Of a stretch of DNA of 35,578 bases, positions 3,958 through 31,121 are shown one piece after another; position 1 is the stretch's first letter, and every line of letters begins with the position of its first letter. A model generated the notes under the pieces. The model was not told the DNA's origin and searched no databases. It saw only the letters and a list, made by a program, of their open reading frames with translations. This DNA is from a virus: IMG/VR virus record IMGVR_UViG_3300037296_000043, positions 1-35,578 of that record. One strand, given 5' to 3'. Both the position numbers and the translations under genes were made by a program.

Positions 3958-3969
3958 GAGAGATACATC

Positions 3970-14277: not shown

Positions 14278-14284
14278 GGTAGTA

Positions 14285-17200
14285 ATGAGCGAAAACCAGC
14301 AGCCTTCCAAGGACCAGTTACTGAATGCGCTTGAGAAGGCGCACCTTGCGGGTGACACCGAAGGGGCAAAGGAGCTGGCCCGCTGGCACAACGAGATTTA
14401 CCAGCCACAACCGGAGCCAGAGATAGCGCAGGAAGGCCCAGGGCTGCCGCCGTTAAACCTTCAGCCTGATACTGGCAGCAAGATTGCCGACGCTGGGCGC
14501 CGTGGACCAGATCCTTCTATTGGTCCCGCAAACGATCCCGCAACTAGCCTGACAGCCGAGGAAATGGCCGCAACGCCGCAACCGTCAGATCAATCAACTG
14601 TGGCAAATACTTCAGAGCAAGTAGCGCTAAACAGGAACCTGCTAAAAGAACAGTTCCCTGAACAATACGAATCGCCTTCAGCAAGCCCGGCAAGATCGAC
14701 TCCCGGAAAGCCAGAGCAGGAATCACCGTCATTTAATGCTGCCCGTGGCGCAGTAGAGCGATCAGGTGATCTTGCGGCCGGTTTAGGCACAAGCATAAAC
14801 ACCGCAGCACAGGCCGCAGAAGATAAATTCGGAGTGGGTGGACTGGTGTGGGATGGCGAAGGCCTGATCCCAAAGTACCTCAATGCACAAGACTACTCTG
14901 ACTTTTTGGCAGAAGGCGGATCAGACCTTGGGGCCGTTGCGACAGACAATCTGAAAAATATTGATGCTGGTTATGTTCCCGAAAACACTTGGGAGTCTGT
15001 TAAGGCAGAGTTTTCGGAAGGTGGCGTTTTTAGCGCAAGCGCCTATGGGGAGGTTTTAGCCTACGGATTTGAGCAGGGAATAAAATCTGTCCCTGATATG
15101 GTTGCCGTCACTTTGTCGCTTCCCGCTTATGTGATTGCACGATCTGGTGAAATTGGTGAAACCCGAGCCCAAAATAAGGGCAAAGAAAAAGCTGAATTGA
15201 CCGACATAGTTGAGGCCGCGCCCTTTGCGCTCGGTTCCGCCATATTGGAAAGAATTGGCGCAAGAGGAATAACCCAAGCCGGAGCCGAAGCGTTTGGCGC
15301 AGCAGCCTTAAAGCGTGGAGTCAAAGCAGCTGCAAAGCGTATCGCAGCAGCCGGGGGCTCCGCGACACTGCGAGAGTCAGGAACAGAGTTTGTTCAGGAG
15401 GGCATACTTGAATATCTTGGTGAGCGATTCGGAACCGATGCAAAACTGGATGTTGCCGAAGCGTTTGACCGAGGCCTTGCGGGCCTAGTTGCTGGTGGAA
15501 CCTTTGGTGGTGCAGTGGGCACCAGTGTTGCAACTGGTAGAGAGATCGCCCGGCCATCCCAAGCGGCAGAGTTAGGACAAGCGCTAAACGAGGGTGTCGA
15601 TAACGCCGAGTTTGTGCCGGCAGACCAGGCTGTTACGGATAGTTTGGACCCTTCCCGCGCGCAGGTGGAACAAACACAGGCATCGCAGCGCCCGAGCATG
15701 GCCGAGCTTGTGTCACAAAAGATGAAAGAGCGTGGTTTTGACTTTACGCCGCGACCAGGGCAAATGCCGCCGGGCATTAATGTGCCTTTTCAGCCTGCGC
15801 AGTCACAGCAACAAGAACAAACAGTTCCTGTAGAAACTGAACGCCAACAAAATACAGAACAGCGTGAAAAAGAAATTGTGCCAGAAGAATCGCAAACCCT
15901 GGACGTTTACGCAGAAGTTCAATCAAACGGATCTTACACCGTGCTTACTACGCCAGCCGGGCAACCGTTGGACGTAAGCCCTGCGCAGAATGCGCGCATT
16001 GAGCCCGTAGCCACAAGTGTTCCTATTGAGGCGCATCGTTCACTAAAAACCAACGCAGGCCGTGAGTCTGTAGAAACACTGAAACGCAGCTACAAGAACG
16101 CTGAAGTGTCTGGCCAGCCTGTAACCGGTAACAAAGATCGTTCAAGAAAAATTACTGAGCAAACAAAGAATGCAGAAAAAGGAGAGGTTGGCGGGACTGT
16201 TGGCAGCAAAGCCATAATTAATGGACCTACAGAGCGGATTAGCTTAGATAGTACGCTTAGCCGCACCGGAAAACCAATGCGTGCCACTGGATACCGTGTT
16301 GACGGAATCGACCCAAACAAGCTTTACAGTGGTGCCCAAGTACCCATCCTTGGTGATGGGGTGTATGTTGCCCCCACCGAACAGGATGCCAAGTCATTCT
16401 CTGGAGAAGACAACTCGGTCATTGCCGAGCAAGAGGTCAATCTCAAAAATCCGCTGGTAATCAATTCGGATAGCGAGTGGCGTGCGCTGACTAAAGAAGC
16501 TGGGTGGCAGAGCCCGAACCCCTTTGGACAGTCCGAGGCTGATACCCAGAAAGCGGTCGATGATCTTCGCGCCATCCTGGCAGCCCGTGGGCATGATGGC
16601 GTGGCGGTGTTGTGGAACGACGACACCATTTACGACTTCGACGCAAAAACCGGCAATCGGATCAAGACCCTGCGGAGCGTGTTCAGTAAGCCGCAAGTAG
16701 TACAGTTCAATAACGCCAAATCTGAAGTCCCAATAGTTCGCCGCGAACAAACTACGCTTAAAGAAACAATCGAGGAGGCAGCGACCAATGAACCTACAGA
16801 ACTGGGTGAACAAGGCCCGGATTCACTGGCAGGAGAATCGGCCGAAGTTTTACCAGAGCCTGAAGGCGCAGGGAACACTGGAGCCGATGCTGAAACAGGC
16901 AGCGGAACAAACGTACCAGCAGGTGGACGAGCTGGAGCAAGCCGGGTTCCAGCCGGACGAGGCGTACCAGATGGTACGGGAGAAATACCTGTTTCCCCCG
17001 GGCGAACCGGAGAGCGAGCAGATGGACAACAACGGGCCGGCGATCCTGGACAGCGCGCTACAGACAATGAGCCGGACACTGGAAGTGGAGAACCCGCAAC
17101 CCGAGGATCAGAGGGTAATGTAGATGCGACAGAAAAAGCGGCAAAAGAAGCGCCAACGCCAAAAGGCGCAACGACGCAAAGATCAGAGCCAGCAGGTGAG

Positions 17201-20200
17201 CGTCCGGCTAAGTTCTTTACGCTAACCCCTGAAATGAACATTGGCGCCGGCGGGGCCAAAACCAAGTTCAAGAACAACTTAAAAGCAATACAGACCCTTA
17301 AACAATTGAGCGAAGAAGGGCGCCAGGCTACGCCGGAGGAACAGCAGATCCTTGCCGGTTACGTTGGCTTTGGTGGTATCCCGCAGGCGTTTGTTGGTGA
17401 TGGTGGCAAGATTACCAAAGGCTGGGAGAAAGAGACAAAGCAACTGCAGGAGGCATTGACCGATGCAGAATATGACGCGGCTCGACGTAGCACTCAGGAT
17501 GCTCATTACACTAGCCCGGAAATTGTGTCCGAGATGTGGAATGCCGTTAAGAATATGGGATTTCAGGGTGGCCGCGTGCTGGAGCCTTCGGTGGGAACGG
17601 GAAACTTCCTGGGCTTTATGCCTGGTGGTGTGCGATCAAAAAGCAGCATTGCCGGGGTGGAGTTGGATCATATCACCGGGGGAATTGCCCAAAAACTCTA
17701 TCCCGGAGCCAACATACAAGCGCCATTAGGATTTCAAGAGTTCACCATGCCGGACAATTATTTTGATCTGGCCATTGGTAACCCGCCGTTTGGCAGTCAA
17801 AAGCTGTATGACGGCAAGCGCAAATCCTTGTCAAAGATGAGCATTCACAACTATTTCTTTGCCAAGTCAATGGCGGGGCTCAAGCCCAATGGTGTGCTGG
17901 CCATGGTGGTATCCAGCCGGTTGATGGACGGCGGCAACAAAATGGCCCGTGATTACCTGGCTGATCGTGCGGACCTGTTGGGTGCTGTAAGAATGCCCAA
18001 TAACGCTTTCCTGAAAAATGCCGGTACCGAGGTCACCACTGACATTATTTTCATGCGCAAGCGTGCGGAAGGTGAGCAGGCAACGGGTGATTCCTGGTCT
18101 GTGGTGAACACTGTTCAGGATGCCAAGGGCATTGATGTGCCTTTGAATGAATATTACAGCAAAAATCCGGCAATGATGCTGGGCGAATGGGGCGCCTATG
18201 GCTCAATGTACGGGCCAAACGATCCTGCACTGGTAGCGAGGGAGGGCCAAGACACTAACGCCTTACTGCGCGAGGCGCTGGCCAGCTTGCCAAAAGGTTT
18301 TATGACCAAGGCTGGAGCTGATGTTGTAACGGAAGACGTGCAGCTGCCTACCAGCATTGAGAACGTAAAAGTGGGCAGCATGTTTATCGACGGTGGCCAG
18401 ATCAGCATTCGTCTTGAAAGCGAAATGGGAAAGGCCCGATCCGAGGCTATTGATGTACCCAGCAAAAAAGCTGAAGAACGAGTGCGCGGGCTGATTAAAG
18501 TGCGTGACGTTTTTGCTGATCTTCGCAAGGCGCAGCTCACTGACAACGTGAAAGACGAGGCGCTGGCGGCATTACGTGACCGGTTAAATCGCACTTATGA
18601 CCAGTTTGTTAGCAAGAATGGGCCGATCAACCTGGATGCCAACAAGCGATTGTTCCGGGATGACCCGACGTGGCCGCAGCTGGCGGCACTGGAAGAATCG
18701 TTTGACAAAGGCATAAGTGCAACCGTTGCAAAGCGCACCGGTGAAACATCCCGCATCCCAAGCGCCAAAAAGGCCGCTATCTTCCGCACTCGCACGCAGC
18801 AGCCGTACAAGGCGCCGGACAAGGCCAGCACAGCCAAAGACTCGCTAACCGCCAGCCTGTCAGAGAAAGGCCAGGTAGACATGGCCTACATGAGCCAGCT
18901 GTACGGTAAGACCGAAAGCGCCATTGTTGACGAGCTGGGCGATTTAATCTTTGAAAGCACGCCCAACAACTGGGAATCCCGTGACGAATACTTGTCTGGC
19001 AACGTCAAAAACAAGTTGGCCATGGCCGAACGCATGGCGAAGGACACACCGCGGCTCCAGCGCAACGTCGCCGCATTGAAAGAAATTCAGCCAGAGGACA
19101 TTGAGGCCGTCGATATTCGCGTGAAGCTGGGCGCGCATTGGCTGCCGACAGAGGTGGTGACCGCTTTTGCAAACCTCATTTTGGGTAACGAAACCGGAAA
19201 AGCGACCTACAACCCGGTTATGGCCAAGTGGTCAATCCGTGGTGGCGCAAGGGATGCGGCCGCAACGCAATACGGCACCGACCGCGCAGAAGTAAAAGAC
19301 GTTTTGACCGCTGCCGCAAATGAAAAAAGCCTTGTTATCCGTGACTCCATTGGTGACGGCAAAACAGTGCTGAACGAATCCGCCACGAACGCCGCAAACG
19401 AAAAAGTAAACCGGGTAAAGGCGGAGTTTCGCCGCTGGGTATGGTCAGACGACGCTCGCCGCGAAAGGTTAATCAGGCTTTACAACGATACGTTCAACAC
19501 GGACCGGGTGCGCGAGTATGACGGCTCACACCTGACATTCCCGGGTAAGGTAAGCGACGACATTATAAAACTGCGGCCGCACCAGGCCAATGCCGCATGG
19601 CGAATTGTTCAAAGCGGTACCACCTTGCTGGACCAGGTGGTTGGATCGGGTAAAACCTTCACCATGATCGCCGGTTCTATGGAACTGCGCCGCACCGGCC
19701 GGGCCAAGAAACCCATGTTTGTGGTACCGAATCATTTGGTTGGCCAATGGGCAGAAGATTTTACCAAGCTGTATCCAAACGCCAACATTCTGGCCGCAAC
19801 CAAACGGGACTTCGAGAAAGGCAACCGCAAGCGCTTGTTTGCCCGCATTTCTACCGGGGACTGGGACGCCGTTATTGTGGCGCATTCATCGTTTGGCAAA
19901 GTTGAAATGGACGCAGAGTTTCAAGAGCGGTTCATCAACCAGCAAATCCGCGACATTGACACGGCCATTGCCACTATCCGGGACCAAGACGGCAAGGATT
20001 CACGGTCAATTAAGCAAATTGAAAAGCAGAAAGAGCGCCTTCAGGAGCGTTTGAAGCGCCTGTTTGATTCGGAAAACAAAGACGACAACCTGACATTCAG
20101 CGAGCTGGGTGTCGATGCTTTGTTCTTGGATGAGGCGCACGAGTTTAAAAACCTGGGGTTTGCCACCGGTATGACCCGTGTTGCAGGCCTGGGAGATCCA

Positions 20201-23200
20201 AAGGGAAGCCAGAAAGCCGCTGACATGTTTATGAAGGTCCAGTCCATCCTGGAGCGCACCGGCGGCAACAACGTGATCTTTGCGACCGGCACGCCCATTA
20301 GCAACACCATGGCCGAAATGTACACGGTTCAGCGCTTCCTGGACTACCAGACCCTGCAAGACCAAGGCATTGCTCACTTTGATGCCTGGGCTCGCATGTA
20401 CGGAGAAGTAATCACGGATTGGGAGCTGTCACCCACCGGCAGCTACAAACTGAATAGCCGATTCAGCAAGTTTGTGAATTTGCCAGAGTTGATGCAGCGG
20501 TACCTGACGTTTGCAGACGTGATAAATCGCGATGACATCAACCGCCAGCTGGCGGCAATGGGAAAGCGCCTTCCGGTACCGAAAATAAAAGGCGGGAAAC
20601 CGAACAACATTATTGTCGATCGGAGTGAGGACCAAGCGGATTACATCGGTGTAGCCGTGAAAGATGAACGCGGCAATGAATCGTATCCAAGGGGATCCCT
20701 AGTCTATCGTGCTGAAAACCTGCCCAAGAAGCCGGAGAAGGGCCAGGACAACATGCTCAAGATCATGAGCGACGCGCGTAAGGCCGCGCTGGATATGCGC
20801 CTGATTGATCCAACGTTGTATGGCGACAACCCCGCCAGCAAGATAAACGAGGCCGCAGGCCGCATCAAAACCATTTACGACAAATGGACTGACGACAAGG
20901 GTGCGCAACTGGTATTCATTGACCTGAGCACGCCCAAGGCTGCAAAAACACGGGAAGCTAACCGCATACGCGACCTTATCCAGCGCTCAGAGAACGGTGA
21001 AGATGCCGCAACTGAACAACTGGACAACATGAGCCCGGATGAACTCGAAGCGCTTAACAGTGATTTTAGTGTGTATGACGACCTGCGCCAGAAGCTGATT
21101 AACCTGGGAATAGCAGAATCAGAAATAGAATTTATTCACAGCGCCAACACCGATATCCAGAAAGCAGAGCTGTTTGCCAAAGTGCGCACTGGCCGCGTCA
21201 GGGTAATGCTGGGATCTACCGCCAAGATGGGCGCCGGCATGAACGTACAGACCCGTCTGGTGGCATTGCACCACATGGATGCGCCGTGGCGCCCTTCAGA
21301 CCTTGAGCAGCGTGAAGGCCGCATTATCCGCCAGGGTAACGTGCTCTATGACCGTGACCCGAACGGTTTCGAAATCGAGATCAACCGCTATGCGACCAAG
21401 CAAACGCTAGACAGTCGCATGTGGCAGACCATTGAAACCAAAGCCCGGTTTATTGAGCAGGTGCGAAAAGGCAACTCCAGTGCCCGGGAAGTAGAAGATC
21501 TTGGCATTGAGTCATCCAACGCCGCAGAAATGAAAGCGGCATCAAGCGGCAACCCGCTTGTTCTGGAAGAAATGGACCTTCGCCAGAAGGTGAGAAAGCT
21601 GGAACAGGCAGAAGAAGAACACGATCGCGAGCAGTTCCGGGTGCGTGACGCAATTCGCCGGGAAAAAAGCATTGTTGAACGTGGCAAAAAGCGCTTGCTG
21701 CAGTTTGCGCAGGACGTGAAGAAGGCGAAGGACGCGCCAAAAGACTTTTCAATGACCGTTAACGGGAAAAAGTTCGACAAAAACAAAGATGCCGGGCAAC
21801 AGATATTGGCCGAAGCTGCAAAAATGGCAAAATCTGGTGTTGAATCCAAGGCCATTGGCAGCTATTCCGGTTTTAGTATGACGCTTGAAAACATCGACGG
21901 TACCCGGTTTGTGATATCGCTTCAGGGAGCACAGGAATACCAAGCCAACATACAAAATATCGAAGAAGCAGACGCCACTGGTGTTTCTCGCCGTGTAACC
22001 AACGCAATACTGTCCATTGATGGTAGTGCAAAAGAAACCGCCGCAAACGTAAGGTTTGCCGAAAAAGACTTGCCGCAGCTGGAAGCGCAGGTGAAGGAGT
22101 GGGAACAGGCCGAGGAACTGGCCAAAGCAAAAAGCAGGCACCAGCTGGTCATTGCCGAGTTGCAGCCAAAGAAAAAAGAGTCACAAGAGGGCGAGGTAGA
22201 CAGCGATATAAGTTCTATGGCCACTCCCATAGATTCGCCAATGCCGCAATGGCAGCCCACATACCGGATACTGGGAGTAAGCCCAAGGCGCCCAGAGTCC
22301 GGAATCATAACGGTAGGTGATCGAAATGTACGCCTGAAGCAAGAGGATGCGCCTACGCGCCGTGAAGGCATCCGAACCATGGTGATTGACCTTATTGGCA
22401 CAAGGCTTTATCAGCAAAAAATAAAAGGAAAATCAAAACTTGGGTTCTATCGTAAATCCAATAGCGAAGTAAGAATCGCAAACTTTGATGATGTTGAGGT
22501 GATGGCGCACGAGCTGGCGCACTTCCTGGACATGCACTATTCGTTCAACGAGCGTTTCACCCGGGCCTACCGTGACCCGAGATACCTCGAAGAAGTTCAG
22601 GCCCTGTCCTACACCAGCAAGGATAAGCTAAAGACAACAGAGGGATTTGCCGAGTTCGTGCGCCTGTGGTTGACGCAGTACAGCGAGGCCAAGTCCCGGG
22701 CGCCGTTGTTCACTCAGAAGTTTGAAACGGTCCTGTCCAACGACAAGCCGCTGCAAAAGAAGCTGACCAACATGCAGGAAGAAATGCACCGATGGTTTGG
22801 CCAGGGCGAATTGGCGCAACTATATGCCGCTACAAGCGGCAACCAGTATACAAAAGCACAACAGCTTTCATTGATGATTGCCCGGCGCCCGGGACAGATG
22901 TGGCGGCAGCAGTATATTGACAAGATCCACGCCGCCAAGGTGATGGGCCGCACTCTAAACGGTGACATGCGTACCGCCAGCGAGGACGCTTACAAGCAAC
23001 TTCAGCTGCTAAACGGCATTGAGGGCATAAGCCAAGAGTCGTTCAAGCACGGCGCTATGGTCATAAATGAGAATGGAGATATCACGTTCAAGGGCCCATC
23101 TCTACGTGATGTGTGGTCAAAGTCTTTGAAGTCGGGACCGAAAGTAGTGCGCGAGCAGGAACTGTATTGGGCCGCACGCCGCGCGAAGGAGCTTGCCGGC

Positions 23201-25579
23201 CAAGGCCGCGAGAACCGGATCAGCAAGGGAATGATTGACGAGGGCCTGGCCCTAGCCCGAAAGCACCCTCATTTTGTGCAGGCGTTCAGTGACTACCAGG
23301 AATACCGCAAGAACATGATGGAATTTTACGTGGATTCCGGCTATGTGACGCCCGATGCAGCTAAGGCAATGCTTAATCGCAACCGCAACTACGTCCCTTT
23401 CCATCGTGTGGTTGAGAGCGTCAACGACACCTACACCGCAGGTTCTGGCTTTCAGCGTCTCAAGGGCGGGCAGCAAAACATAAAACCAATATTCGACAAC
23501 ACGATGATGCAGGAACAGCGGCATATGTATGCCGCACTCAAGGCCAGGGCCCTGCGATCTCTGTATGAGGACGCCTTGAACAGCCAGGACAACGTGTTCC
23601 TTTCAAAGATTGGGCCAGACAGCAAACCGGTAAGAGCAGCGCTTGACCAGATGGTGTCAAAGACAGCCGGCGCCATGGCAGACCTCGGGATTACCATTTC
23701 AGAAGATGGAGTGTTCACAGGTGACGGTGAAACGATCGTAGACAAAGCAGATATTGAAGCCTACTACGAAAAAAACTCAGAAGAATTGATGTTCTGGACG
23801 TTCGGACACAAGCCAAAGACCAGCGAAACCATGGTCGATAGCTTTATAGACCGCCGCGGCAAGCGAGTATGGATTGAGATCCAGAAGGAAAACGAATTGT
23901 TGGTCGACATGCTTGACGGCATGGATAATGTGGCGCTTCCAAAAGGATCCCTTGGCACAGCCGTTAAGTTTGCCATGGCCGTGAAGAAGTTCCAAACACT
24001 GACCATTACCAGCATGGCTCAATTTGCCGGGCCAAACGCAGTACGTGACGCACAGCAGGCCTTCGTGCTGTCTGGTGGTAAGTTCGTTCCTGTGTGGGAC
24101 ACCATGAAAGGATTTGGAGCACAGCTTCACGCCTTGGTTAGCTCAAAAAGTGCATTGTCAGAGATGAGAGCGCAAGGCGGTCCCGTGGCCGGACGTGTAG
24201 GGACGTTTTATAACGACAACTGGGGGCTGGCGTCAGATTCGCCCGCTGCCCCACGCACGCCATTCTTCTACCCCACTCAATGGGCAAGCTCAGTGCTCGA
24301 CATTTACATGGCCATTGTCGATTCGTTTGAGATCGCAACCCGTGTTGGATTCTATCTCAGGATGCGGCCGACTGTTGGCGCCAGAGAAGCTGCATGGCAG
24401 GCCAGGGAGATCAGCACCGACTTCCGTAAGCACGGAACCTACGCCCCGTGGGTGCTACTGCAACGGACAGTGCCATTCCTTGGCGCCTATGTGCAGTCGG
24501 TTGATCGAGACATCAGGGCCCTGGCAGAAAACAAAGGGGAGATGAAGCTGGCCAACTTGGTTAAAACCGAAAGCGGGCGGGCAACCTTGGCCGACATGAA
24601 GGTTCGTATCTGGTTGGCCGGCAGCTTAATAATCGCCGTCACCGCCGTTCTAGCATTGTTGAACGACGACGATGATCGATACCGGGCACTGGCGCCGGAC
24701 CAGAAAGTACGCTTCTACCATTTCTTCATTGGTGGGCGTCACTACACTTTGCCCAAAGGCCACGGTTTCATTCAGCTTATTGGCCAGGGCACAGAATCGG
24801 CAATAGATGTTATCGGCCAACAGGAATCCAAAGCCGCTCAGAAGACTATGGCTTTCGCCGTTGCCTATCACTTTGGAATGGACGCTACGCCAGGCATTAT
24901 CAACCCGGTGGCAGAGATCGCACTGAACCGCACGTTCACAGGAGCGCCAGTGGTGTCTCGCTATGCAAAGGACAGGGAGCCGCGCTATCAATACGACGAT
25001 CGCACGCCGCTGATCTACGTCAACGTAGGGCGGGAGCTGAACATTAGCCCGGACAAGGCTCACCACCTGATGCGGGGCTACACCGGCTACCTGAGCGACT
25101 TTATAGACGAGGCCAGCGAAAACATGCTGTGGGACAACACTGCCTGGGGTGAACGACCCTTTGCCCGCGACTTTGCGAAGATGGCGGGTAAGCAGTTTAA
25201 TCCGCGTGACGTTCCATACCGCACCAAGTGGACCGTTGGCTATTACGAGCTACGACAGCGGGCCGCAACAGCCCAGGCGAACCTTTCGTTTTTGGGAAAA
25301 GAACAGGCAATTCGTGACCAGGAGCCGCTTAAAAATTTCGCGTCAAATGAAGTCAATGCCTCACTGGTGGCTATCAACAAAGTGTTTTCACAGATTGATT
25401 CTGCGTTCTCAAATCAAGGCGAGGTAATTGCCAGCATAAAATACAACCCAGAGCTGTCCGCCAAAGAAAAGGAAAAAGACATTGAATCCTGGTACGCGCA
25501 AAAGAACGAGGTGATGAAGGATGTGTATCAGCAAGTTGTTAAAGAAATTGAAAAAGTGGAAGCCAAGGTTTCACAATAA
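14285..25579 (+). CDS. Giant polyvalent (DarB-like) protein: ART-like, N6-adenine methyltransferase, SF2 helicase, zincin
   Basis: The 3764-residue protein is one unbroken frame. In order: Pro/Gln-rich start; Gly/Ala helices (about 311-420); an ADP-ribosyltransferase-like segment (about 652-812, with GDGVYVAPTEQDAKSF); a disordered linker (about 835-960); an N12-class adenine methyltransferase with EPSVGTGNF (1100-1108) and catalytic NPPF (1166-1169); an SF2 helicase with GSGKT (1787-1791), DEAH (1949-1952) and QREGRIIRQ (2342-2350); a metallopeptidase HELAH (2742-2746) with Glu2786/Glu2790; an LPD38-like region from about 3270 and a hydrophobic helix at 3442-3459. Such polyvalent proteins are thought to be injected and to protect or remodel DNA against host defence. 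It occupies the gene 16 (ejection) slot. Start 14285 has GAGG 5 bp upstream; the open frame's earlier ATG lies inside the previous gene. Confidence 0.9.
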   Translation: MSENQQPSKDQLLNALEKAHLAGDTEGAKELARWHNEIYQPQPEPEIAQEGPGLPPLNLQPDTGSKIADAGRRGPDPSIGPANDPATSLTAEEMAATPQPSDQSTVANTSEQVALNRNLLKEQFPEQYESPSASPARSTPGKPEQESPSFNAARGAVERSGDLAAGLGTSINTAAQAAEDKFGVGGLVWDGEGLIPKYLNAQDYSDFLAEGGSDLGAVATDNLKNIDAGYVPENTWESVKAEFSEGGVFSASAYGEVLAYGFEQGIKSVPDMVAVTLSLPAYVIARSGEIGETRAQNKGKEKAELTDIVEAAPFALGSAILERIGARGITQAGAEAFGAAALKRGVKAAAKRIAAAGGSATLRESGTEFVQEGILEYLGERFGTDAKLDVAEAFDRGLAGLVAGGTFGGAVGTSVATGREIARPSQAAELGQALNEGVDNAEFVPADQAVTDSLDPSRAQVEQTQASQRPSMAELVSQKMKERGFDFTPRPGQMPPGINVPFQPAQSQQQEQTVPVETERQQNTEQREKEIVPEESQTLDVYAEVQSNGSYTVLTTPAGQPLDVSPAQNARIEPVATSVPIEAHRSLKTNAGRESVETLKRSYKNAEVSGQPVTGNKDRSRKITEQTKNAEKGEVGGTVGSKAIINGPTERISLDSTLSRTGKPMRATGYRVDGIDPNKLYSGAQVPILGDGVYVAPTEQDAKSFSGEDNSVIAEQEVNLKNPLVINSDSEWRALTKEAGWQSPNPFGQSEADTQKAVDDLRAILAARGHDGVAVLWNDDTIYDFDAKTGNRIKTLRSVFSKPQVVQFNNAKSEVPIVRREQTTLKETIEEAATNEPTELGEQGPDSLAGESAEVLPEPEGAGNTGADAETGSGTNVPAGGRAGASRVPAGRGVPDGTGEIPVSPGRTGERADGQQRAGDPGQRATDNEPDTGSGEPATRGSEGNVDATEKAAKEAPTPKGATTQRSEPAGERPAKFFTLTPEMNIGAGGAKTKFKNNLKAIQTLKQLSEEGRQATPEEQQILAGYVGFGGIPQAFVGDGGKITKGWEKETKQLQEALTDAEYDAARRSTQDAHYTSPEIVSEMWNAVKNMGFQGGRVLEPSVGTGNFLGFMPGGVRSKSSIAGVELDHITGGIAQKLYPGANIQAPLGFQEFTMPDNYFDLAIGNPPFGSQKLYDGKRKSLSKMSIHNYFFAKSMAGLKPNGVLAMVVSSRLMDGGNKMARDYLADRADLLGAVRMPNNAFLKNAGTEVTTDIIFMRKRAEGEQATGDSWSVVNTVQDAKGIDVPLNEYYSKNPAMMLGEWGAYGSMYGPNDPALVAREGQDTNALLREALASLPKGFMTKAGADVVTEDVQLPTSIENVKVGSMFIDGGQISIRLESEMGKARSEAIDVPSKKAEERVRGLIKVRDVFADLRKAQLTDNVKDEALAALRDRLNRTYDQFVSKNGPINLDANKRLFRDDPTWPQLAALEESFDKGISATVAKRTGETSRIPSAKKAAIFRTRTQQPYKAPDKASTAKDSLTASLSEKGQVDMAYMSQLYGKTESAIVDELGDLIFESTPNNWESRDEYLSGNVKNKLAMAERMAKDTPRLQRNVAALKEIQPEDIEAVDIRVKLGAHWLPTEVVTAFANLILGNETGKATYNPVMAKWSIRGGARDAAATQYGTDRAEVKDVLTAAANEKSLVIRDSIGDGKTVLNESATNAANEKVNRVKAEFRRWVWSDDARRERLIRLYNDTFNTDRVREYDGSHLTFPGKVSDDIIKLRPHQANAAWRIVQSGTTLLDQVVGSGKTFTMIAGSMELRRTGRAKKPMFVVPNHLVGQWAEDFTKLYPNANILAATKRDFEKGNRKRLFARISTGDWDAVIVAHSSFGKVEMDAEFQERFINQQIRDIDTAIATIRDQDGKDSRSIKQIEKQKERLQERLKRLFDSENKDDNLTFSELGVDALFLDEAHEFKNLGFATGMTRVAGLGDPKGSQKAADMFMKVQSILERTGGNNVIFATGTPISNTMAEMYTVQRFLDYQTLQDQGIAHFDAWARMYGEVITDWELSPTGSYKLNSRFSKFVNLPELMQRYLTFADVINRDDINRQLAAMGKRLPVPKIKGGKPNNIIVDRSEDQADYIGVAVKDERGNESYPRGSLVYRAENLPKKPEKGQDNMLKIMSDARKAALDMRLIDPTLYGDNPASKINEAAGRIKTIYDKWTDDKGAQLVFIDLSTPKAAKTREANRIRDLIQRSENGEDAATEQLDNMSPDELEALNSDFSVYDDLRQKLINLGIAESEIEFIHSANTDIQKAELFAKVRTGRVRVMLGSTAKMGAGMNVQTRLVALHHMDAPWRPSDLEQREGRIIRQGNVLYDRDPNGFEIEINRYATKQTLDSRMWQTIETKARFIEQVRKGNSSAREVEDLGIESSNAAEMKAASSGNPLVLEEMDLRQKVRKLEQAEEEHDREQFRVRDAIRREKSIVERGKKRLLQFAQDVKKAKDAPKDFSMTVNGKKFDKNKDAGQQILAEAAKMAKSGVESKAIGSYSGFSMTLENIDGTRFVISLQGAQEYQANIQNIEEADATGVSRRVTNAILSIDGSAKETAANVRFAEKDLPQLEAQVKEWEQAEELAKAKSRHQLVIAELQPKKKESQEGEVDSDISSMATPIDSPMPQWQPTYRILGVSPRRPESGIITVGDRNVRLKQEDAPTRREGIRTMVIDLIGTRLYQQKIKGKSKLGFYRKSNSEVRIANFDDVEVMAHELAHFLDMHYSFNERFTRAYRDPRYLEEVQALSYTSKDKLKTTEGFAEFVRLWLTQYSEAKSRAPLFTQKFETVLSNDKPLQKKLTNMQEEMHRWFGQGELAQLYAATSGNQYTKAQQLSLMIARRPGQMWRQQYIDKIHAAKVMGRTLNGDMRTASEDAYKQLQLLNGIEGISQESFKHGAMVINENGDITFKGPSLRDVWSKSLKSGPKVVREQELYWAARRAKELAGQGRENRISKGMIDEGLALARKHPHFVQAFSDYQEYRKNMMEFYVDSGYVTPDAAKAMLNRNRNYVPFHRVVESVNDTYTAGSGFQRLKGGQQNIKPIFDNTMMQEQRHMYAALKARALRSLYEDALNSQDNVFLSKIGPDSKPVRAALDQMVSKTAGAMADLGITISEDGVFTGDGETIVDKADIEAYYEKNSEELMFWTFGHKPKTSETMVDSFIDRRGKRVWIEIQKENELLVDMLDGMDNVALPKGSLGTAVKFAMAVKKFQTLTITSMAQFAGPNAVRDAQQAFVLSGGKFVPVWDTMKGFGAQLHALVSSKSALSEMRAQGGPVAGRVGTFYNDNWGLASDSPAAPRTPFFYPTQWASSVLDIYMAIVDSFEIATRVGFYLRMRPTVGAREAAWQAREISTDFRKHGTYAPWVLLQRTVPFLGAYVQSVDRDIRALAENKGEMKLANLVKTESGRATLADMKVRIWLAGSLIIAVTAVLALLNDDDDRYRALAPDQKVRFYHFFIGGRHYTLPKGHGFIQLIGQGTESAIDVIGQQESKAAQKTMAFAVAYHFGMDATPGIINPVAEIALNRTFTGAPVVSRYAKDREPRYQYDDRTPLIYVNVGRELNISPDKAHHLMRGYTGYLSDFIDEASENMLWDNTAWGERPFARDFAKMAGKQFNPRDVPYRTKWTVGYYELRQRAATAQANLSFLGKEQAIRDQEPLKNFASNEVNASLVAINKVFSQIDSAFSNQGEVIASIKYNPELSAKEKEKDIESWYAQKNEVMKDVYQQVVKEIEKVEAKVSQ
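16788..17123 (+). CDS. Embedded +1-frame gene inside the giant gene, 111 residues
   Basis: This frame lies wholly inside the giant gene, shifted by +1. It has ATG with GGAGG 9 bp upstream and a stop at 17121. The product looks like a folded helical protein, with evenly spaced Trp, Tyr and Phe: NWVNKARIHWQENRPKFYQ, then TYQQVDELEQAGFQPDEAYQ and MVREKYLFPPGEP. The giant protein in the same stretch reads as a low-complexity Gly/Ala/Glu/Pro linker, which suggests that the embedded frame is the constrained one. The sequence style recalls small proteins encoded with such giant genes in other phages, but I cannot name a family and do not assign a function. Confidence 0.7.
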   Translation: MNLQNWVNKARIHWQENRPKFYQSLKAQGTLEPMLKQAAEQTYQQVDELEQAGFQPDEAYQMVREKYLFPPGEPESEQMDNNGPAILDSALQTMSRTLEVENPQPEDQRVM

Positions 25580-25642: not shown

Positions 25643-28144
25643 ATGGCAGTATCAATCATTGGGCCAAAATTCTACGCATTCGACAACGTCACCGGTAACC
25701 CGCTGGCCTTCGGCAAGGTCTACACCTACCAGGCAGGCACCAACACGCCCAAGGCCACGTTTCAAAGCGAGGATGGCGTCACAGCCAATGCCAACCCTAC
25801 CATTTTGAATGGTGCGGGCTATGCAAATATCTACCTTGACGGCAGTTACAAGGTAGTCGTCAAAGACGCTGATGATGTTGAAGTGTGGACTTCTGATCCT
25901 GTTACTGATCCTTCCGGACTGCAAAAAGAATGGATCAATGAGCGTGCGGCAACACAGGTATCACCTACGAGCTTTTCTATTGTAGGAAACCACACAGACG
26001 TTTATACCGCAGGAAAAGCGTTGCAGCTTGACGATGCAAGCTACCTATACGGGTATGTCGATAGCGTTACCTACGTTGGCGGCAATACAGTAGTAGAGGT
26101 TCTATCGGACGATCCTTTAACCGGATCTTTGACCCGATCCTGGACCGGCATCGTAGGCATGAATAGCTTGCCTCAGTTCCTATCGGGGAGCTCTGAAAGC
26201 CTGCAAGACGCAGTAAAAAAGCGGGTAATTCGCGTAACAAGCGTAGCGGCAATGGTGGCGATAGATGCCCCCATAGGTGCGGCAATACAAACGCTTGGTT
26301 ATTATTCTGCGGGGGATGGCGGTGGCAACACCTATCAAGTTGTAGCTGGCGGAACAGGAACCGCAGACGGCGGCAGTTTTATTGATCTTGATAGTGGCTT
26401 GCAATCAAAAGGCCTATTTAAGGGAAAAGAAAACGTAAGACAATTTGGGGCTCGGGGTAACGGCCAAAGTTCCCAAAATGAAGATACTCTCGCGATTGAT
26501 GCGTACTTTCAATATATTGAAGATAATCCAAGCAAAGATGCTCAATCATTAAATGGTGCAAGAGGAATATTTTTATCTTACGACGCTGTTGTTATGCGTT
26601 TTCCAAGAGGTGATTATTATTATAATGGTTTAGGCTACACCCCTGTAGAAAATAAAGTAATTGTTATAAAAGGCGATTCTCCCGATAGTTCTAGCATTTC
26701 AATAGTCTCAGATGTTCACTTTACTAATCCGAAAAATGCAAGCAAAGTAATGTCCTATGTTGAGTTTTCAGATATAAAAATAGTAGGTGGGAGGGGAGCT
26801 TTTTTCAATGAAAAAACCGACGTTGTAAATGTTGCACACGGAAAGCGGGTATATAATTGCGTATTTAGCGGGTATACTTCTGTGGCTTTTGGCACAACAC
26901 AGGGATCAGATGCTAGATGGGCAATTAAACAAACTGTTTTTGACGGGGGCAATGTCGGAACTCCTGTTGGCCTTTTGCTAGGCAGCGAAATTGCAGAGCC
27001 TGATATTGGTGGGTGCAACACATTCTCAGGTAATAAATACGATATTATAACAGCCAATGACGGGATTTCTGAGCTTATTATAGGCCCGTCTAATACCTTT
27101 TTTAATACCGCTTCTAATAATATAAAAGAGGCAGATGTATGGTTTCAGCCGGGAGATATTAAACAAGGACTTGCTTCTAAATTATTTGGTAACAGGCACT
27201 CTAATGAAAACTTAGACGTAACAAGACCTAACATACTAATTGCAGATCGAGACGGGTCGACAGCTTCACACGTGTTTACTCATCTAACCACGCTATCCGC
27301 TGGATTTTTAAAAGGAGTAACAATACAAGACTGCTCGCTTAATAGCTCATTAAACCCGTCAACCGGTTCGGCAGCCATTGGTTACATACTATCTTATGCA
27401 AATAAAGTATCGGGGCTTAGATTTGTAGGTAACCAGATTGGTCAGTGGCGACCCGAAATAATCACTTATGCGTCGGTGGTAACAGCAGCCGATGTAGATA
27501 CGGGCGGAGCTTACACTAATTTTGCAAAGCTAAACCTTTCATTTTTTGGAGGTAATTCTTACAAACCTATTAATATTTCAAACATTGCCGGCGCGGGGAT
27601 TGTTGAGTATGAAAACAGAACCAACACTGGCGGGCACGGTATGCTCGACACGGTGTCTGATGGCACTGTGGGTCTTTCTTTAATTCACGCAACCTCTGAC
27701 CCAAGGGGGTGGTTAAAAGGGGGGAGCGTGACGTCAGCAAGCGCAACAGATGCAACGGGGGGTGTTGATGCGGGAAAATTTACATTCGGTGCTGATCAAC
27801 TAATTGCTGCAAGCTTAAATAGAGCTAACATTAAGCCCGGCTTTACTATGTTTATAGAGGGGGACGTTAAAAAAAGTGAAACAACCTCCCTTAGAGCTAT
27901 ACAGCTTGAGTATACCATATATGGAACTAAATTTAGTTACACGTTAGCACTTACGGATGAGTGGCAAAGGTTCCGAGTACCCATAATCTGCGCTAGCGGA
28001 AATCATAGCAGCGGAACGTTTTCCATAGTATTTGCACCGAGACTTTTTTTAGATGTCGGGGTAGAAGATAGCTTTCTTCTCGGTCGCTTCTGTTTGTATA
28101 ACAGCCAAGGCCCGGTCCCGTATTCTGTGTCAGTTATAACTTGA
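25643..28144 (+). CDS. Tail fibre or tailspike, receptor-binding protein
   Basis: The 833-residue protein is in the P22 gene 9 slot. Residues 1-95 (FYAFDNVTGNPLAFGKVYTYQAG, NGAGYANIYLDGSYKVVVKD) resemble the head-binding domain that attaches spikes and fibres of this phage group to the tail. Residues about 265-680 have the regular short-strand pattern of a parallel beta-helix, starting ENVRQFGARGNG. The last 150 residues look like a carbohydrate-binding or tip domain. It would recognise and perhaps cut host surface polysaccharide; no catalytic residues can be assigned. From about 26,450 on the DNA is clearly AT-richer than the start of the gene, a sign that the distal part was swapped in. Confidence 0.82.
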   Translation: MAVSIIGPKFYAFDNVTGNPLAFGKVYTYQAGTNTPKATFQSEDGVTANANPTILNGAGYANIYLDGSYKVVVKDADDVEVWTSDPVTDPSGLQKEWINERAATQVSPTSFSIVGNHTDVYTAGKALQLDDASYLYGYVDSVTYVGGNTVVEVLSDDPLTGSLTRSWTGIVGMNSLPQFLSGSSESLQDAVKKRVIRVTSVAAMVAIDAPIGAAIQTLGYYSAGDGGGNTYQVVAGGTGTADGGSFIDLDSGLQSKGLFKGKENVRQFGARGNGQSSQNEDTLAIDAYFQYIEDNPSKDAQSLNGARGIFLSYDAVVMRFPRGDYYYNGLGYTPVENKVIVIKGDSPDSSSISIVSDVHFTNPKNASKVMSYVEFSDIKIVGGRGAFFNEKTDVVNVAHGKRVYNCVFSGYTSVAFGTTQGSDARWAIKQTVFDGGNVGTPVGLLLGSEIAEPDIGGCNTFSGNKYDIITANDGISELIIGPSNTFFNTASNNIKEADVWFQPGDIKQGLASKLFGNRHSNENLDVTRPNILIADRDGSTASHVFTHLTTLSAGFLKGVTIQDCSLNSSLNPSTGSAAIGYILSYANKVSGLRFVGNQIGQWRPEIITYASVVTAADVDTGGAYTNFAKLNLSFFGGNSYKPINISNIAGAGIVEYENRTNTGGHGMLDTVSDGTVGLSLIHATSDPRGWLKGGSVTSASATDATGGVDAGKFTFGADQLIAASLNRANIKPGFTMFIEGDVKKSETTSLRAIQLEYTIYGTKFSYTLALTDEWQRFRVPIICASGNHSSGTFSIVFAPRLFLDVGVEDSFLLGRFCLYNSQGPVPYSVSVIT

Positions 28145-28262
28145 ATACCAATCATGAAAATTAAAAAAAAAGTAGTAATTTACGTCGCCGCGACGCCGAC
28201 CGTACTGGGCATTGGATCTGCATAGATACGCCGCTAACACGCGGAGGAAAGAGGGGTATAGA
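28145..28262. other. Intergenic stretch after the tail fibre
   Basis: No convincing gene. A 23-codon frame at 28154-28225 encodes a Lys-rich start and a hydrophobic tail but lacks a ribosome binding site. An A-rich run (28157-28170) and a short palindrome follow (see the terminator entry). Near the right end, GAGG-rich sequence is the ribosome binding site of the next, truncated gene. Confidence 0.4.
28157..28195 (-). terminator. Possible terminator for leftward transcription
   Basis: Read on the minus strand, the stem CGTCG-CGG-CGACG (28195-28183) is followed about 12 nt later by a run of T (opposite the A-run at 28162-28170). The place, at the end of the leftward operon, is right. The gap between stem and T-run makes it a weak candidate. 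Confidence 0.3.
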
Positions 28263-28388
28263 ATGATCTATGCCCAACATTTCAGCCAAAAAGAGTTTAG
28301 GAATTGGGCCGGAGACATGAGCGCGCGCCTAGTCACCATGCTGGACGTGCTCAGGTTTCGCATTAGCCAAAAGCCAAAAGCTGGTTAA
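28263..28388 (+). pseudogene. Truncated start of an M15-type peptidase gene
   Basis: A 41-codon frame with GAGGGG 6 bp before ATG encodes a start (FSQKEFRNWAGDMSARLV, then TMLDVLRFRIS) that closely recalls the N-terminus of phage M15 (D-Ala-D-Ala type) peptidases, where the conserved helix is followed by a His/Asp zinc domain. Here it ends after about 35 family-like residues; the last five codons and stop come from the neighbouring remnant. The catalytic part is missing, so it should be inactive as an enzyme. The family match is from memory of the pattern. Translation of the short peptide remains possible because the ribosome binding site is intact. Confidence 0.55.
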
Positions 28389-28454
28389 TGGCGCTATCTG
28401 CCTGATCCTCGTTCTCAAATGTTCGGGACAGGCCAGCAGACATTGAACGCGGCT
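28363..28454 (-). pseudogene. Remnant of a second DUF1367 gene (C-terminus)
   Basis: Read leftward into the stop at 28365-28363, the frame ends RTFENEDQADSAINQLLAFG. The intact DUF1367 protein encoded at 29089-29691 ends RAFPDEHEAQNAIDQLLQFG. They share 12 of the last 22 residues and an identical relation to the stop. The DNA is much more diverged than a fresh duplication would be, so this is the tail of a different DUF1367 allele. It is out of frame with the HNH gene, whose stop it follows directly. Its other end abuts the truncated peptidase gene. Confidence 0.6.
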
Positions 28455-28994
28455 TTACACCAATCCCATCATTTTGTTGGTCAATGCGTATTCGCCAAAC
28501 GCGACAATGGCAACTTCGTCATAAGCCTTGGCAGCTTCACGAGGGCAGTCAAAATTACCTATCTGCCTTACCGTTCCTGAAATACCAATTCTGGCACGAT
28601 ATTTACCTTCACGGCGATGGAATGAAACACCCTTAAATCCCGATGTGTTGCCGCGCCTAACGTTAGTGTTAGCTCTATTGTGTTTCATACTGGCGCAGCG
28701 CAGGTTGTCCCAGGCGTTATTTGTCTTAACTCGGTCTCTGTGATCTACCGTAGGCGGCACTGACCCTGTCATGAAAAGAAACGCCAAGCGGTGAGCCAGG
28801 CGACCCTTTCCATCAATCCATATTGAAATGTATCCCTGATTAACTGTGCCAGCTGGCTTTCCAGAAAACCTGGCGTTCCAAGCGTAACAGATCCAATTGG
28901 CTTTAAAGTCTGATGGTTTTCGTTCGAGCCATGTAAACTCGCCCGTTTCTGGATTGTAATGCAGTAGGCTTTTGATTCGCTGAATCGTCAACAT
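28455..28994 (-). CDS. HNH homing endonuclease with AP2 domain
   Basis: The 179-residue protein has an N-terminal DNA-contact region, an HNH nuclease core (RLAHRLAFLFMTG, VDHRD with His85, DNL with Asn97, and KHNRAN with His105), then an AP2-type DNA-binding domain at 118-171 (SGFKGVSFHRREGKYRARI and EAAKAYDEVAIVAFG). Such HNH-AP2 proteins are free-standing homing endonucleases that spread by cutting homologous sites in related phages. It stands at the end of the leftward operon, 94 bp after the DUF1367 gene, and is bordered on the other side by a remnant of a second DUF1367 allele. GAGGG precedes the ATG. Confidence 0.9.
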   Translation of the reverse strand: MLTIQRIKSLLHYNPETGEFTWLERKPSDFKANWICYAWNARFSGKPAGTVNQGYISIWIDGKGRLAHRLAFLFMTGSVPPTVDHRDRVKTNNAWDNLRCASMKHNRANTNVRRGNTSGFKGVSFHRREGKYRARIGISGTVRQIGNFDCPREAAKAYDEVAIVAFGEYALTNKMMGLV

Positions 28995-29088
28995 ATCTCT
29001 ACCCTCAGAGATTCCCGAAATATGAATGCGGCAGTACGCTTCGGGTGACGCGCACGTTCGGTAGCTGGCCTAGCCGCACAAATCGAGA

Positions 29089-29691
29089 CTATCCGAATTG
29101 TAAGAGCTGATCAATGGCGTTTTGGGCTTCATGCTCGTCTGGAAAAGCCCTATACAATACGAACCTCCATATTACAGAGAAGCAACGCCGGTAAAAGTCA
29201 CGGAACCCATCTTCGTCAAGACTGTTGAAGTTAATGCTTCGTGTGCGCTTCACCACACCTCGTGGAGTAGATATCAAATCGTAGTGCCCGGTTTCCAGCT
29301 TTAGCCATTCGAGAAACGCCTCTACAGACTTCTCAGGGGCTTCCATTTTTAATGCTCGCCTATGCTCAAGGTCAGCCATAAATTCACCCTGAGCGCGCCG
29401 TATTGCTCCTGTGTTGCCACCTTGTATGTCTAACCACGATGCAAAGTTAGCGAGCGTTTGCCGTTCTGCCGATGTAACCAGGCCGCCAGGTGGCTCGTAA
29501 TAGTCCATAGCAAGAGTGATAAGGCCACCAAAAAAAAGTTTGTGGTGCTGCAGAGATCGAGCCTTAATCTGTGTAACTGACACGCGCACAGCCTGGCCAG
29601 TCTTAAACTTGCCCATGTGGTCCTGGTCAGCGGCAGACGCCGGCCGCAATGCGCCGTCCTGACCTTTCACCAGCGTTACTTCAATCGGCAC
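29089..29691 (-). CDS. DUF1367 family phage protein
   Basis: The 200-residue protein matches the DUF1367 pattern of lambdoid and related prophages: basic N-terminal region, then the hallmark RSLQHHKLFFGGLITLAMDYYEP, a KSVEAFLEWLKLETGHYD region and the C-terminal FRDFYRRCFSVIWRFVLYR. The family has no settled function; its usual place next to replication genes suggests DNA metabolism. Start is GTG 29691, inside the end of the helicase loader gene (11-bp overlap) with GGGGGA upstream, so translation is coupled. Confidence 0.8.
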   Translation of the reverse strand: MPIEVTLVKGQDGALRPASAADQDHMGKFKTGQAVRVSVTQIKARSLQHHKLFFGGLITLAMDYYEPPGGLVTSAERQTLANFASWLDIQGGNTGAIRRAQGEFMADLEHRRALKMEAPEKSVEAFLEWLKLETGHYDLISTPRGVVKRTRSINFNSLDEDGFRDFYRRCFSVIWRFVLYRAFPDEHEAQNAIDQLLQFG

Positions 29692-30391
29692 CTTTCAGAT
29701 CCCCCATGAGCTTTGCCAGCGTTTCCCGGCCTTTCTTGCGACTGGACTCAGTAACAACGCCCGTTGGATTTCCGTGCTCGATCATTGCAGGCTGCTCATA
29801 AAAATCATGGCCGTTCATCCAGTGGTCAATCATTTCGTCATAAGCCCGCGCCATGGCCTTGGTTGCCTTTTCGGCATCGTTGGTTTTCATTTCGTACCAG
29901 TCAATAAACCGGCTCATGGTATACATGGCAGGGCTCAACCTGGACCGGCGCCGGTTATGATCGCCTTTGCGTAGCAGTGCCATCATCTGGCTTATCGCGT
30001 TGTCCTTGCCTGGTATGCCCGCCTTCTCCTTAGCTGCCTCTATGCACCATGCCACGAACTGACCGGCGCTTGGTGGTCGAACCCATCCGCAGGCCCGAGA
30101 CTGTTCCAAGCCTGCCTGTATCATCTCAATATCACTTACGCCTTTTTTAATAAGCGTCTTTGCCCACTGTCGCTTCGCCGCCTTGACCTCTCCCTCGGTC
30201 GGCCAGATCTCTCGCCACTTAGGAAAGATTTCTTGTAGGCGCTTGAACAATTTGTTGATGACCTTCTGGTCCATTTCCTCAAAGGTTTTCGAAGTCCCCG
30301 GCGTGGGGGTCGAATCCATCGGCCCAGCTTGTGTCGTTTGGGTCTGAGACTTGGACTGTATTTGATTGATAACCTGTGTCATGTCCTGCAT
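29681..30391 (-). CDS. Replication protein P-like helicase loader
   Basis: The 236-residue protein has the core of phage replication protein P: LFKRLQEIFPKWREIWPTEGEVKAAKRQWAK (shown by its ends), SDIEMIQAGLEQSR and WVRPPSAGQFVAWC. In lambda, P brings host DnaB helicase to the origin complex built by O. The first 40 residues are Gln/Ser/Thr-rich and poorly conserved in style. The chosen ATG 30391 has GGAG 10 bp upstream and overlaps the upstream replication gene by 113 bp in another frame. Later ATGs at 30319 or 30274 lack good signals. Confidence 0.82.
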   Translation of the reverse strand: MQDMTQVINQIQSKSQTQTTQAGPMDSTPTPGTSKTFEEMDQKVINKLFKRLQEIFPKWREIWPTEGEVKAAKRQWAKTLIKKGVSDIEMIQAGLEQSRACGWVRPPSAGQFVAWCIEAAKEKAGIPGKDNAISQMMALLRKGDHNRRRSRLSPAMYTMSRFIDWYEMKTNDAEKATKAMARAYDEMIDHWMNGHDFYEQPAMIEHGNPTGVVTESSRKKGRETLAKLMGDLKGAD

Positions 30392-31121
30392 TTTTCATCC
30401 ACTCCGCTTTGAATCCTCGCCAGCCCCTGGTGGCTGCTTCTGCCAGACATTCATCGACCGATATTCCCATTGCCGCCGCTTTGCGCAATTCTTTGCCGAT
30501 CTGGTTCATGGCGGTTTGGCTATGCGTTGCTTTGGCCTTACGCCGTGCTGCAAGCCAATCATTGAACACCTGCTCCGATGGACTATCTGGCCATGACGAA
30601 TAATCAATCGCGGCAGCGGGTGTCTTTGTATTCTTTTGTTTTTTACCTTCTGTATCTGTATCTGTATCTGTATCTGTATCTGTATCTGTATCTGTATCTT
30701 TATTCGTTGGTTTCTCGTTGCCATCCCGTTGCAACGAATCGTCAACGGACGTTGAACGGTCGTTGCCTTTCCGTTTGTTTCCTTCCTGTTTTGACCGCTT
30801 TCTGGCTTCAGCTGACGCCCTGCCAGCACGAACCCGCTGTTCCTGTGCATCCTTTACCGCCTCAAGGTCACGTTCAATTCGGTCGTGTACCCATTCCGTT
30901 CCTGTGTCGTTGAAAAACTCGCTCAACGAAACTTCAACGGTCGTCCAACGGTCGTTGGAAAGTCGGGCAATTCTTGAAAGCCTGTTTTTTGGTATCGGCT
31001 TCCCTGTCTGCCAGTAGTTCATTATCAAAAGCAGGTAGGCGCCATGCTCCTCTGTGGATAGGTGCATTGTGTCGGCCAGGTAATCAGCCACGTACAGCTG
31101 CATGTAAGGTAAGGCCGCCAT
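30279..31121 (-). CDS. DUF1376 replication initiator-like (O-type) protein
   Basis: The 280-residue protein starts with the DUF1376 pattern: MQLYVADYLADTMHLSTEEHGAYLLLIMNYW and PIPKNRLSRIARLSNDRW, a winged-helix type domain found in phage initiators. A basic linker (RKRSKQEGNKRKG) and nine Asp-Thr repeats follow, then a C-terminal helical part (AMGISVDECLAEAATRGWRGFKAEWM) common in replisome organisers. It would bind the origin and recruit the P-like loader encoded next. The gene itself holds the candidate origin repeats, as lambda O does. AAGGAG is 5 bp before ATG 31121. Confidence 0.75.
   Translation of the reverse strand: MAALPYMQLYVADYLADTMHLSTEEHGAYLLLIMNYWQTGKPIPKNRLSRIARLSNDRWTTVEVSLSEFFNDTGTEWVHDRIERDLEAVKDAQEQRVRAGRASAEARKRSKQEGNKRKGNDRSTSVDDSLQRDGNEKPTNKDTDTDTDTDTDTDTDTEGKKQKNTKTPAAAIDYSSWPDSPSEQVFNDWLAARRKAKATHSQTAMNQIGKELRKAAAMGISVDECLAEAATRGWRGFKAEWMKNAGHDTGYQSNTVQVSDPNDTSWADGFDPHAGDFENL
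30651..30704 (-). repeat. Nine tandem TGTATC hexamers (Asp-Thr codon pairs)
   Basis: Nine perfect copies of TGTATC (GATACA on the coding strand) run for 54 bp and encode (Asp-Thr)9 in the linker of the DUF1376 protein. Perfect copies imply recent slippage or selection. Since the unit is 6 bp, changes in number keep the frame and only alter linker length. Confidence 0.95.
30732..30957. repeat. Two 34-bp iteron blocks, candidate replication origin
   Basis: Blocks 30732-30765 and 30924-30957 match at 29 of 34 positions without gaps. Each holds three CAACG-type units at an 11-bp step (about one helical turn); the last units form dyads such as CAACGGTCGTTG (30946-30957) and CAACGGACGTTG (30743-30754). 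The blocks are 192 bp apart, lie inside the initiator-like gene and are followed by the hexamer run. Lambda's origin is likewise a set of dyad iterons within gene O. Origin activity is inferred. Confidence 0.6.

Follow-up and report, generated by a model that had tools for sequence, protein, structure and literature searches.

We consider it likely that the peptidase-like frame and the DUF1367 remnant that meet within a few bases in this viral DNA record two events: an older joint, and the later entry of an HNH cassette that replaced the 3' end of the DUF1367 gene. On this account, a "gene remnant" at the border of two phage modules can be something that a selfish element produces and probably also uses: the orphan DUF1367 tail would probably stand in that relation to the HNH cassette, as its likely right homology arm, and the host gene persists with a foreign tail. 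The window, that is the whole 35,578-nucleotide stretch analysed (IMG/VR record IMGVR_UViG_3300037296_000043), holds the following features around the joint:

25643-28144, plus strand: tail-fibre-like gene, 833 aa, N-terminal part conserved, distal part variable
28154-28225, plus strand: broken short frame of 24 codons with stop, between fibre gene and peptidase start
28263-28388, plus strand: 41-codon frame; codons 1-33 of an M15-like peptidase gene (28263-28361), the remainder antisense of the DUF1367 end
28360-28365, no strand: joint of the peptidase homology end with the stop codon of the DUF1367 tail, at the same base in L002, L003, L059 and L014
28363-28456, minus strand: orphan 3' end of DUF1367, native from around codon 168 onward and with a gap of 8 nt; aligns with L088 from gene base 501
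28455-28994, minus strand: HNH endonuclease gene, 179 aa, HNH_3 plus AP2-like domain (PF13392, 7.2e-13; phrog_99, 5.4e-61)
28995-29012, minus strand: predicted hairpin AUCUCUGAGGGUAGAGAU that takes in the Shine-Dalgarno sequence immediately ahead of the HNH start (whole-leader z = -1.04, weak when taken alone)
29000-29080, minus strand: int-alpA-type structured RNA leader (a model built on 31 other leaders scores it at 46.4 bits, E 3.4e-10)
29089-29691, minus strand: intact DUF1367 / NinB-Orf-like gene, 200 aa (PF07105, 2.5e-41; phrog_319, 9.9e-39)

The plus-strand frame opens with an ATG at 28263 and runs for 41 codons (MIYAQHFSQKEFRNWAGDMSARLVTMLDVLRFRISQKPKAG) to a stop at 28386-28388. Peptidase homology ceases after codon 33 (..TTTCGC, 28361), where full-length copies go on with LG or similar; alignments place the break between TTTCGC and ATTAGCC at 28361/28362, and the DUF1367 stop starts at 28363. 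On the minus strand, the frame ..LSRTFENEDQADSAINQLLAFG* terminates with its stop at 28365-28363. The peptidase start and the DUF1367 end lie 2-3 bases apart, and the frames converge with a few codons of overlap. Sequence and alignments confirm both pieces and their coordinates, and the junction that the earlier note described is real. The joint falls at the identical base in L002, L003-L006 and L059, and for L014, which lacks the start codon of the frame, the alignments recover just its right part. A different joint, at codon 24 of the peptidase and likewise adjoining DUF1367, is found in L088 and L089. Since L059 and L014 carry the window's joint without an HNH gene, the joint is older than the HNH cassette; it is ordinary phage mosaicism that predates HNH entry.

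The earlier note took this junction for a deletion scar in which both genes had been cut. A peptidase-like start does abut a DUF1367 end, as it had claimed, but the joint did not truncate DUF1367. More specifically, an intact gene lies at 29089-29691, separated from the orphan tail by the HNH gene and the structured RNA leader, and in L059 and L014 DUF1367 continues uninterrupted to the same joint. L059 carries a 200-aa DUF1367 with the same tail, RAFEDEDQADSAINQLLAFG, overlapping the peptidase fragment, and no HNH gene; L014 has DUF1367 without insert up to the joint, with an internal frameshift in the gene (L002 and L016 also carry frameshifts, and in all three contigs these may be sequencing errors; several contigs are short). 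The window's orphan matches the DUF1367 3' end of L059 and L014 at 96.7% over 60 nt, compared with 73% over 37 nt for the tail of the window's own DUF1367. A single deletion between the late and early modules, removing the rest of the peptidase and most of DUF1367 and leaving both stumps, would account for a truncated peptidase and for stumps 2-3 bases apart; we nevertheless consider it unlikely, because DUF1367 is whole both here and, at the same joint, in L059, and because the upper edge of the orphan is the HNH gene rather than the joint. A search of genome contigs found no DUF1367 relatives.

As a single query, the 41-aa frame had no match in Pfam, PHROGs, PDB sequences or annotated phages. 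Its relatives were detected only when an alignment of three variants served as query, which returned 32 IMG/VR loci, nearly all at E 1e-9 to 1e-22, so the match is not due to chance. The same start opens a 151-aa gene in most of these loci, and full-length peptidase-like relatives were found in many other viral contigs, which bears out the peptidase-like gene start proposed in the earlier note, with an M15 type as probable. Thirteen aligned full-length copies show 62-91% identity to the first, with H59, D71 and H116 invariant. The full-length protein has a weak match to phrog_894 (endolysin; 1.7e-5) and none to a Pfam or NCBIfam family. Its predicted model (pLDDT 81) gave nothing under E 0.001 in Foldseek, and clan MD stands at the top of the VIA list for that model (zinc DD-peptidase 1lbu, Z 6.6; Hedgehog-N, about 6; LysECD7, 5.7), with further enzymes and folds of the clan (VldE, Ply500 and MepA) also high in it. 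From this model, the full-length gene is a probable M15-type, clan MD peptidase. Holin-like genes follow the full-length peptidase in L065, and neighbours are similar at other loci; the window's codons 1-33 are the start of a probable lysis-cassette enzyme. Phage M15-type endolysins and zinc DD-peptidases of clan MD are the closest known systems, being the best fold matches and sharing holin-like neighbours with the full-length relatives; they differ in that the window retains 33 of 151 codons, and the fold scores are moderate, with no Pfam family.

An older event would have placed the end of a tail-fibre gene, together with the initial ~100 bp of such a peptidase gene, directly behind the DUF1367 stop, and the peptidase start is probably the ragged edge of imported fibre DNA. 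The N-terminal 248 aa of the fibre-like gene are 82% identical to L003-L006, and the gene has a weak match to a tail spike (phrog_3783, 0.012). In L059, DNA upstream of the fragment matches L085, which has a full-length peptidase, at 83% over 275 nt, and window positions 28154-28255 match the DNA preceding the L076 peptidase start at 76% over 102 nt; both matches are to phages otherwise without the window's genes. Peptidase starts of 19 to 80 codons with unrelated ends occur in otherwise different phages, where there are six different breakpoints; examples are L090 (19 codons, then a cell-wall hydrolase), L084 (about 46, then a T7-type holin), L076 (about 50, then an M15_4-like peptidase just below the Pfam cut-off) and L083 (about 80, then a terminase small subunit). 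Such scattered starts may mark the ends of imported fibre regions. Bases 67-99 of the fragment are more alike among window-type phages (0.92) than to full-length genes (0.79), whereas over bases 1-66 the fragments resemble each other no more than they resemble full-length genes; this pattern fits import of a fibre end with a ragged right edge, followed by exchange through the retained start.

The earlier note had also concluded that an ancestor possessed another lysis enzyme after the fibre gene. A full-length peptidase is missing from all window-type relatives found, and inspection of VvAW1, D478, ZP9 and L009 revealed no full peptidase between fibre and DUF1367. Given this lack of full-length copies and the starts of other lengths in unrelated phages, that conclusion is better moved from the ancestor to the donor of the fibre region, which would have had the enzyme. 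A deletion that truncated the peptidase alone, in an ancestor with a full lysis gene at this place, is possible.

The 41-codon frame could instead be a retained working mini-gene rather than a leftover, a reading that the earlier note had set against its own and that we judge improbable. Across four fragments pN/pS is 0.15 at a pS of 0.50, similar to full-length genes (0.13), and start and stop are conserved in all four. The low ratio speaks for a conserved gene, and exchange with intact donors explains part of it: the value fits repeated renewal from intact donors as well as a kept mini-gene, and since fragment sequences intermix with full-length ones we do not accept a mini-gene on pN/pS alone. 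The final codons, moreover, are set by the overlapping DUF1367 end, bases 1-66 are as near to full-length genes as renewal by exchange would have them, stumps in other phages have unrelated ends, and L014 lacks the start. The window also carries E10K, D/E14N and D/E17G at sites that are acidic in 13 of 13 aligned full-length copies.

The later event is seen on the DUF1367 side of the joint. The window's HNH protein scores 48.4 bits for HNH_3 (PF13392; cut-off 24.8) and 26.2 bits for AP2, below the cut-off of 33.3 for that domain. L003-L006 have the leader and orphan of the window, with the same 8-nt gap, and an HNH gene of a different family (best PHROG 59, not 99); as judged from sequence, one HNH gene is swapped for another inside the same leader and orphan frame. 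The last ~30 bases of the window's DUF1367 and the leader are common to L003 and L016 although the gene body has diverged, and the block 29120-28441 is nearly 100% identical between the window and L016, while the DUF1367 body is at ~65%. Together, the L003-L006 and L016 comparisons indicate that HNH genes are exchanged in one slot and that the cassette has moved between diverged bodies. L003 and L059 agree at 97-98% over codons 1-110 of DUF1367, and L003 differs in its tail end and adds the HNH gene, leader and orphan. The window's DUF1367 matches the empty alleles over the first ~30 codons and no further in the identity profile; as there is no cassette-free relative with the same DUF1367 body, the tail swap in the window is read by analogy with L003 and L105.

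In L105, DUF1367 is followed by a leader, then an HNH gene that matches the one of L003 at 50%, then an orphan tail. Its DUF1367 agrees with L104, L108 and L109 at 89-92% over codons 51-167 and at about 60% over codons 168-200. The L105 orphan, in turn, matches empty alleles at 91-96%, and L104 at 96% over 99 nt from gene base 503. At the level of alignment, this comparison demonstrates tail replacement cleanly and in an independent case, and the anatomy of the cassette is established with it. Tail replacement explains mosaic C-terminal ends in DUF1367/NinB. The orphan tail is not always made or retained: L097, L098 and L114 have HNH gene and leader and no orphan. Codons 1-50 of L097 and L098 are at 93-97% to cassette-free VvAW1 and L112, with divergence thereafter up to the next gene, as expected if repair had ended in that gene. 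L114 has two HNH genes in tandem right behind DUF1367 (3199-3986), an arrangement expected from repeated entry at one site. Pseudomonas phage D3, in which an HNH gene lies upstream of NinB, was set aside as a different arrangement.

These comparisons bear on two other origins of the orphan. Plain tandem duplication, or loss of a second DUF1367 gene, with the HNH gene there by chance, draws on the fact that 3'-end duplicates can arise without an endonuclease and on the HNH genes of L097 and L098, which have no orphan; it is very improbable against two independent lineages (window/L003 and L105) with the same order and an orphan from the same codon, and against an orphan closer to empty alleles than to the gene's own tail. 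That a self-splicing intron carries the HNH gene, with the orphan as exon 2, is scarcely credible: HNH genes are often intronic and the leader is structured, but the gene upstream already ends in a full homologous tail with its stop, and no intron family was found in 28100-29300 at E up to 10.

For the preferred account of an older joint and a later cassette, we envisage that the cassette, consisting of a replacement DUF1367 3' end, an int-alpA-type leader and an HNH gene, would have entered at about codon 168, so that DUF1367 was rebuilt with a foreign tail and its native tail stranded behind the endonuclease gene. The HNH protein would cut cassette-free DUF1367 in a conserved C-terminal stretch (FYKAAFSVCW), and in donor-templated repair the DUF1367 body would serve as the left homology arm, the orphan tail as the right one. 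With its new tail the gene would stay functional and would no longer carry the cut site, and the leader probably limits or delays HNH translation. We infer this homing activity, namely cutting, direction and mobility, by analogy with known systems.

The closest parallels are fungal. WHO elements of Torulaspora and Lachancea yeasts cut the aldolase gene and replace its 3' end at each entry, and the duplicated 3' fragment behind the endonuclease is the second homology arm (PMC7282813). As in WHO elements, the window's endonuclease gene follows immediately on a full-length host gene and has a 3' fragment of that gene behind it; the 3' end would likewise be replaced, and endonucleases vary at the one locus. 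The window differs in that WHO elements have an endonuclease of intein-zinc finger type and target aldolase, as opposed to an HNH protein, phage DUF1367, an RNA leader and putative homing. Fungal mitochondrial mORFs (Allomyces, Glomus atp6 and others) have a C-terminal duplication (PMC3630166), in which a foreign C-terminal end and an endonuclease ORF are followed by the native C-terminal end left behind; here too the orphan closely resembles the gene of relatives, and the inserted tail has diverged. The mORFs differ in being mitochondrial, with LAGLIDADG or GIY-YIG endonucleases, and transcription of their hybrid genes has been demonstrated. Free-standing phage homing endonucleases (T4 seg and mob, Aeh1 mobE) share with the window an endonuclease between phage genes and an RNA hairpin over the ribosome-binding site, with flank co-conversion expected; the sections of PMC2988022 drawn on here describe no replacement 3' end or duplicated tail for them. 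A limited search of open-access literature found no published phage case of 3'-end-replacing homing. By its sequence, then, this is WHO or mORF anatomy in a phage. If the account is true, 3'-end-replacing homing, described in the cited literature from fungi only, would gain a phage model that lends itself readily to testing.

The ~90 nt between the DUF1367 stop and the HNH start are conserved in six lineages. An exact pattern of this leader retrieved six contigs, none of them new, and a relaxed pattern retrieved 77 IMG/VR stretches, most of which come soon after a stop codon and have a start 50-100 nt further on. The leader groups with int-alpA RNA (RF02996), although the window's copy, at 20.4 bits, is itself below the gathering score of 35.8; that score was passed by 9 of 20 searched leader loci, and leaders of the same type elsewhere reach 36.6-55 bits. 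Many genes downstream of the leaders code for HNH or other endonucleases, with HNH_3 in 14 of 53 cases and one HNH PHROG in 19 of 53, others being DUF1376-type or unknown. A promoter and terminator scan gave nothing above chance.

Pairing within the leaders was compared with a null of 500 trials in which loops were swapped between sequences, a procedure that retains relatedness and leaves the P3 stem inside the compared region; by this measure, at least 5 contiguous Watson-Crick pairs connect the P3 region with the stretch behind P1 in 46 of 54 leaders (loop swap mean 8.9, maximum 16). The P3 region is likewise complementary to the last 17 nt before the start codon in 40 of 54 (mean 12.9, maximum 22), and to both stretches in 34 of 54 (mean 3.8, maximum 9); a score-based test was similar. 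This pairing of the P3 loop region in two ways (window 29000-29080, minus strand; L128-L198) suggests that the leader is a cis-acting translation switch and not an sRNA. The window's leader and int-alpA RNA have the conserved core and stems in common; Rfam types the latter as sRNA, whereas here it is a leader before a start codon with a loop region complementary to the Shine-Dalgarno region. Hairpins holding the Shine-Dalgarno sequence are described for T4-type homing endonucleases (PMC2988022).

More tentatively, and with the balance slightly on the side of doubt, we propose that WHO-like phage cassettes overwrite the 3' end of DUF1367/NinB, the recombination-mediator gene, and travel with int-alpA RNA as a portable cis translation switch that precedes homing endonucleases and further accessory genes of phages. 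As part of this tentative proposal, the loop would pair either with the nearby stretch, forming a pseudoknot that leaves the start free, or with the Shine-Dalgarno sequence, closing the start. With this leader family, int-alpA RNA gains a candidate role that can be put to the test. A lower-scoring copy of the leader (26.7 bits, E 6e-5) lies at L056:10256-10332 (minus strand), at the start of an annotated HNH homing endonuclease; L056 is Vibrio phage vB_ValP_FGH, which is in culture and might serve as a laboratory system.

Other observations concern the flanks of this region. Upstream of the DUF1367 start region, 320 bases (29681-30000) are identical or differ by 1 base in L002, L003, L014 and L016, and there is a sharp recombination edge near 29600-29680, beyond which three of four DUF1367 bodies are only ~65% like that of the window. 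Positions 14225-25579 form a single frame of 3784 codons with methylase/helicase-like stretches recognized by eye. Within the DUF1376 (primosomal-type) gene at 30279-31121, a short repeated unit at 30639-30760 codes for DTDTDT...
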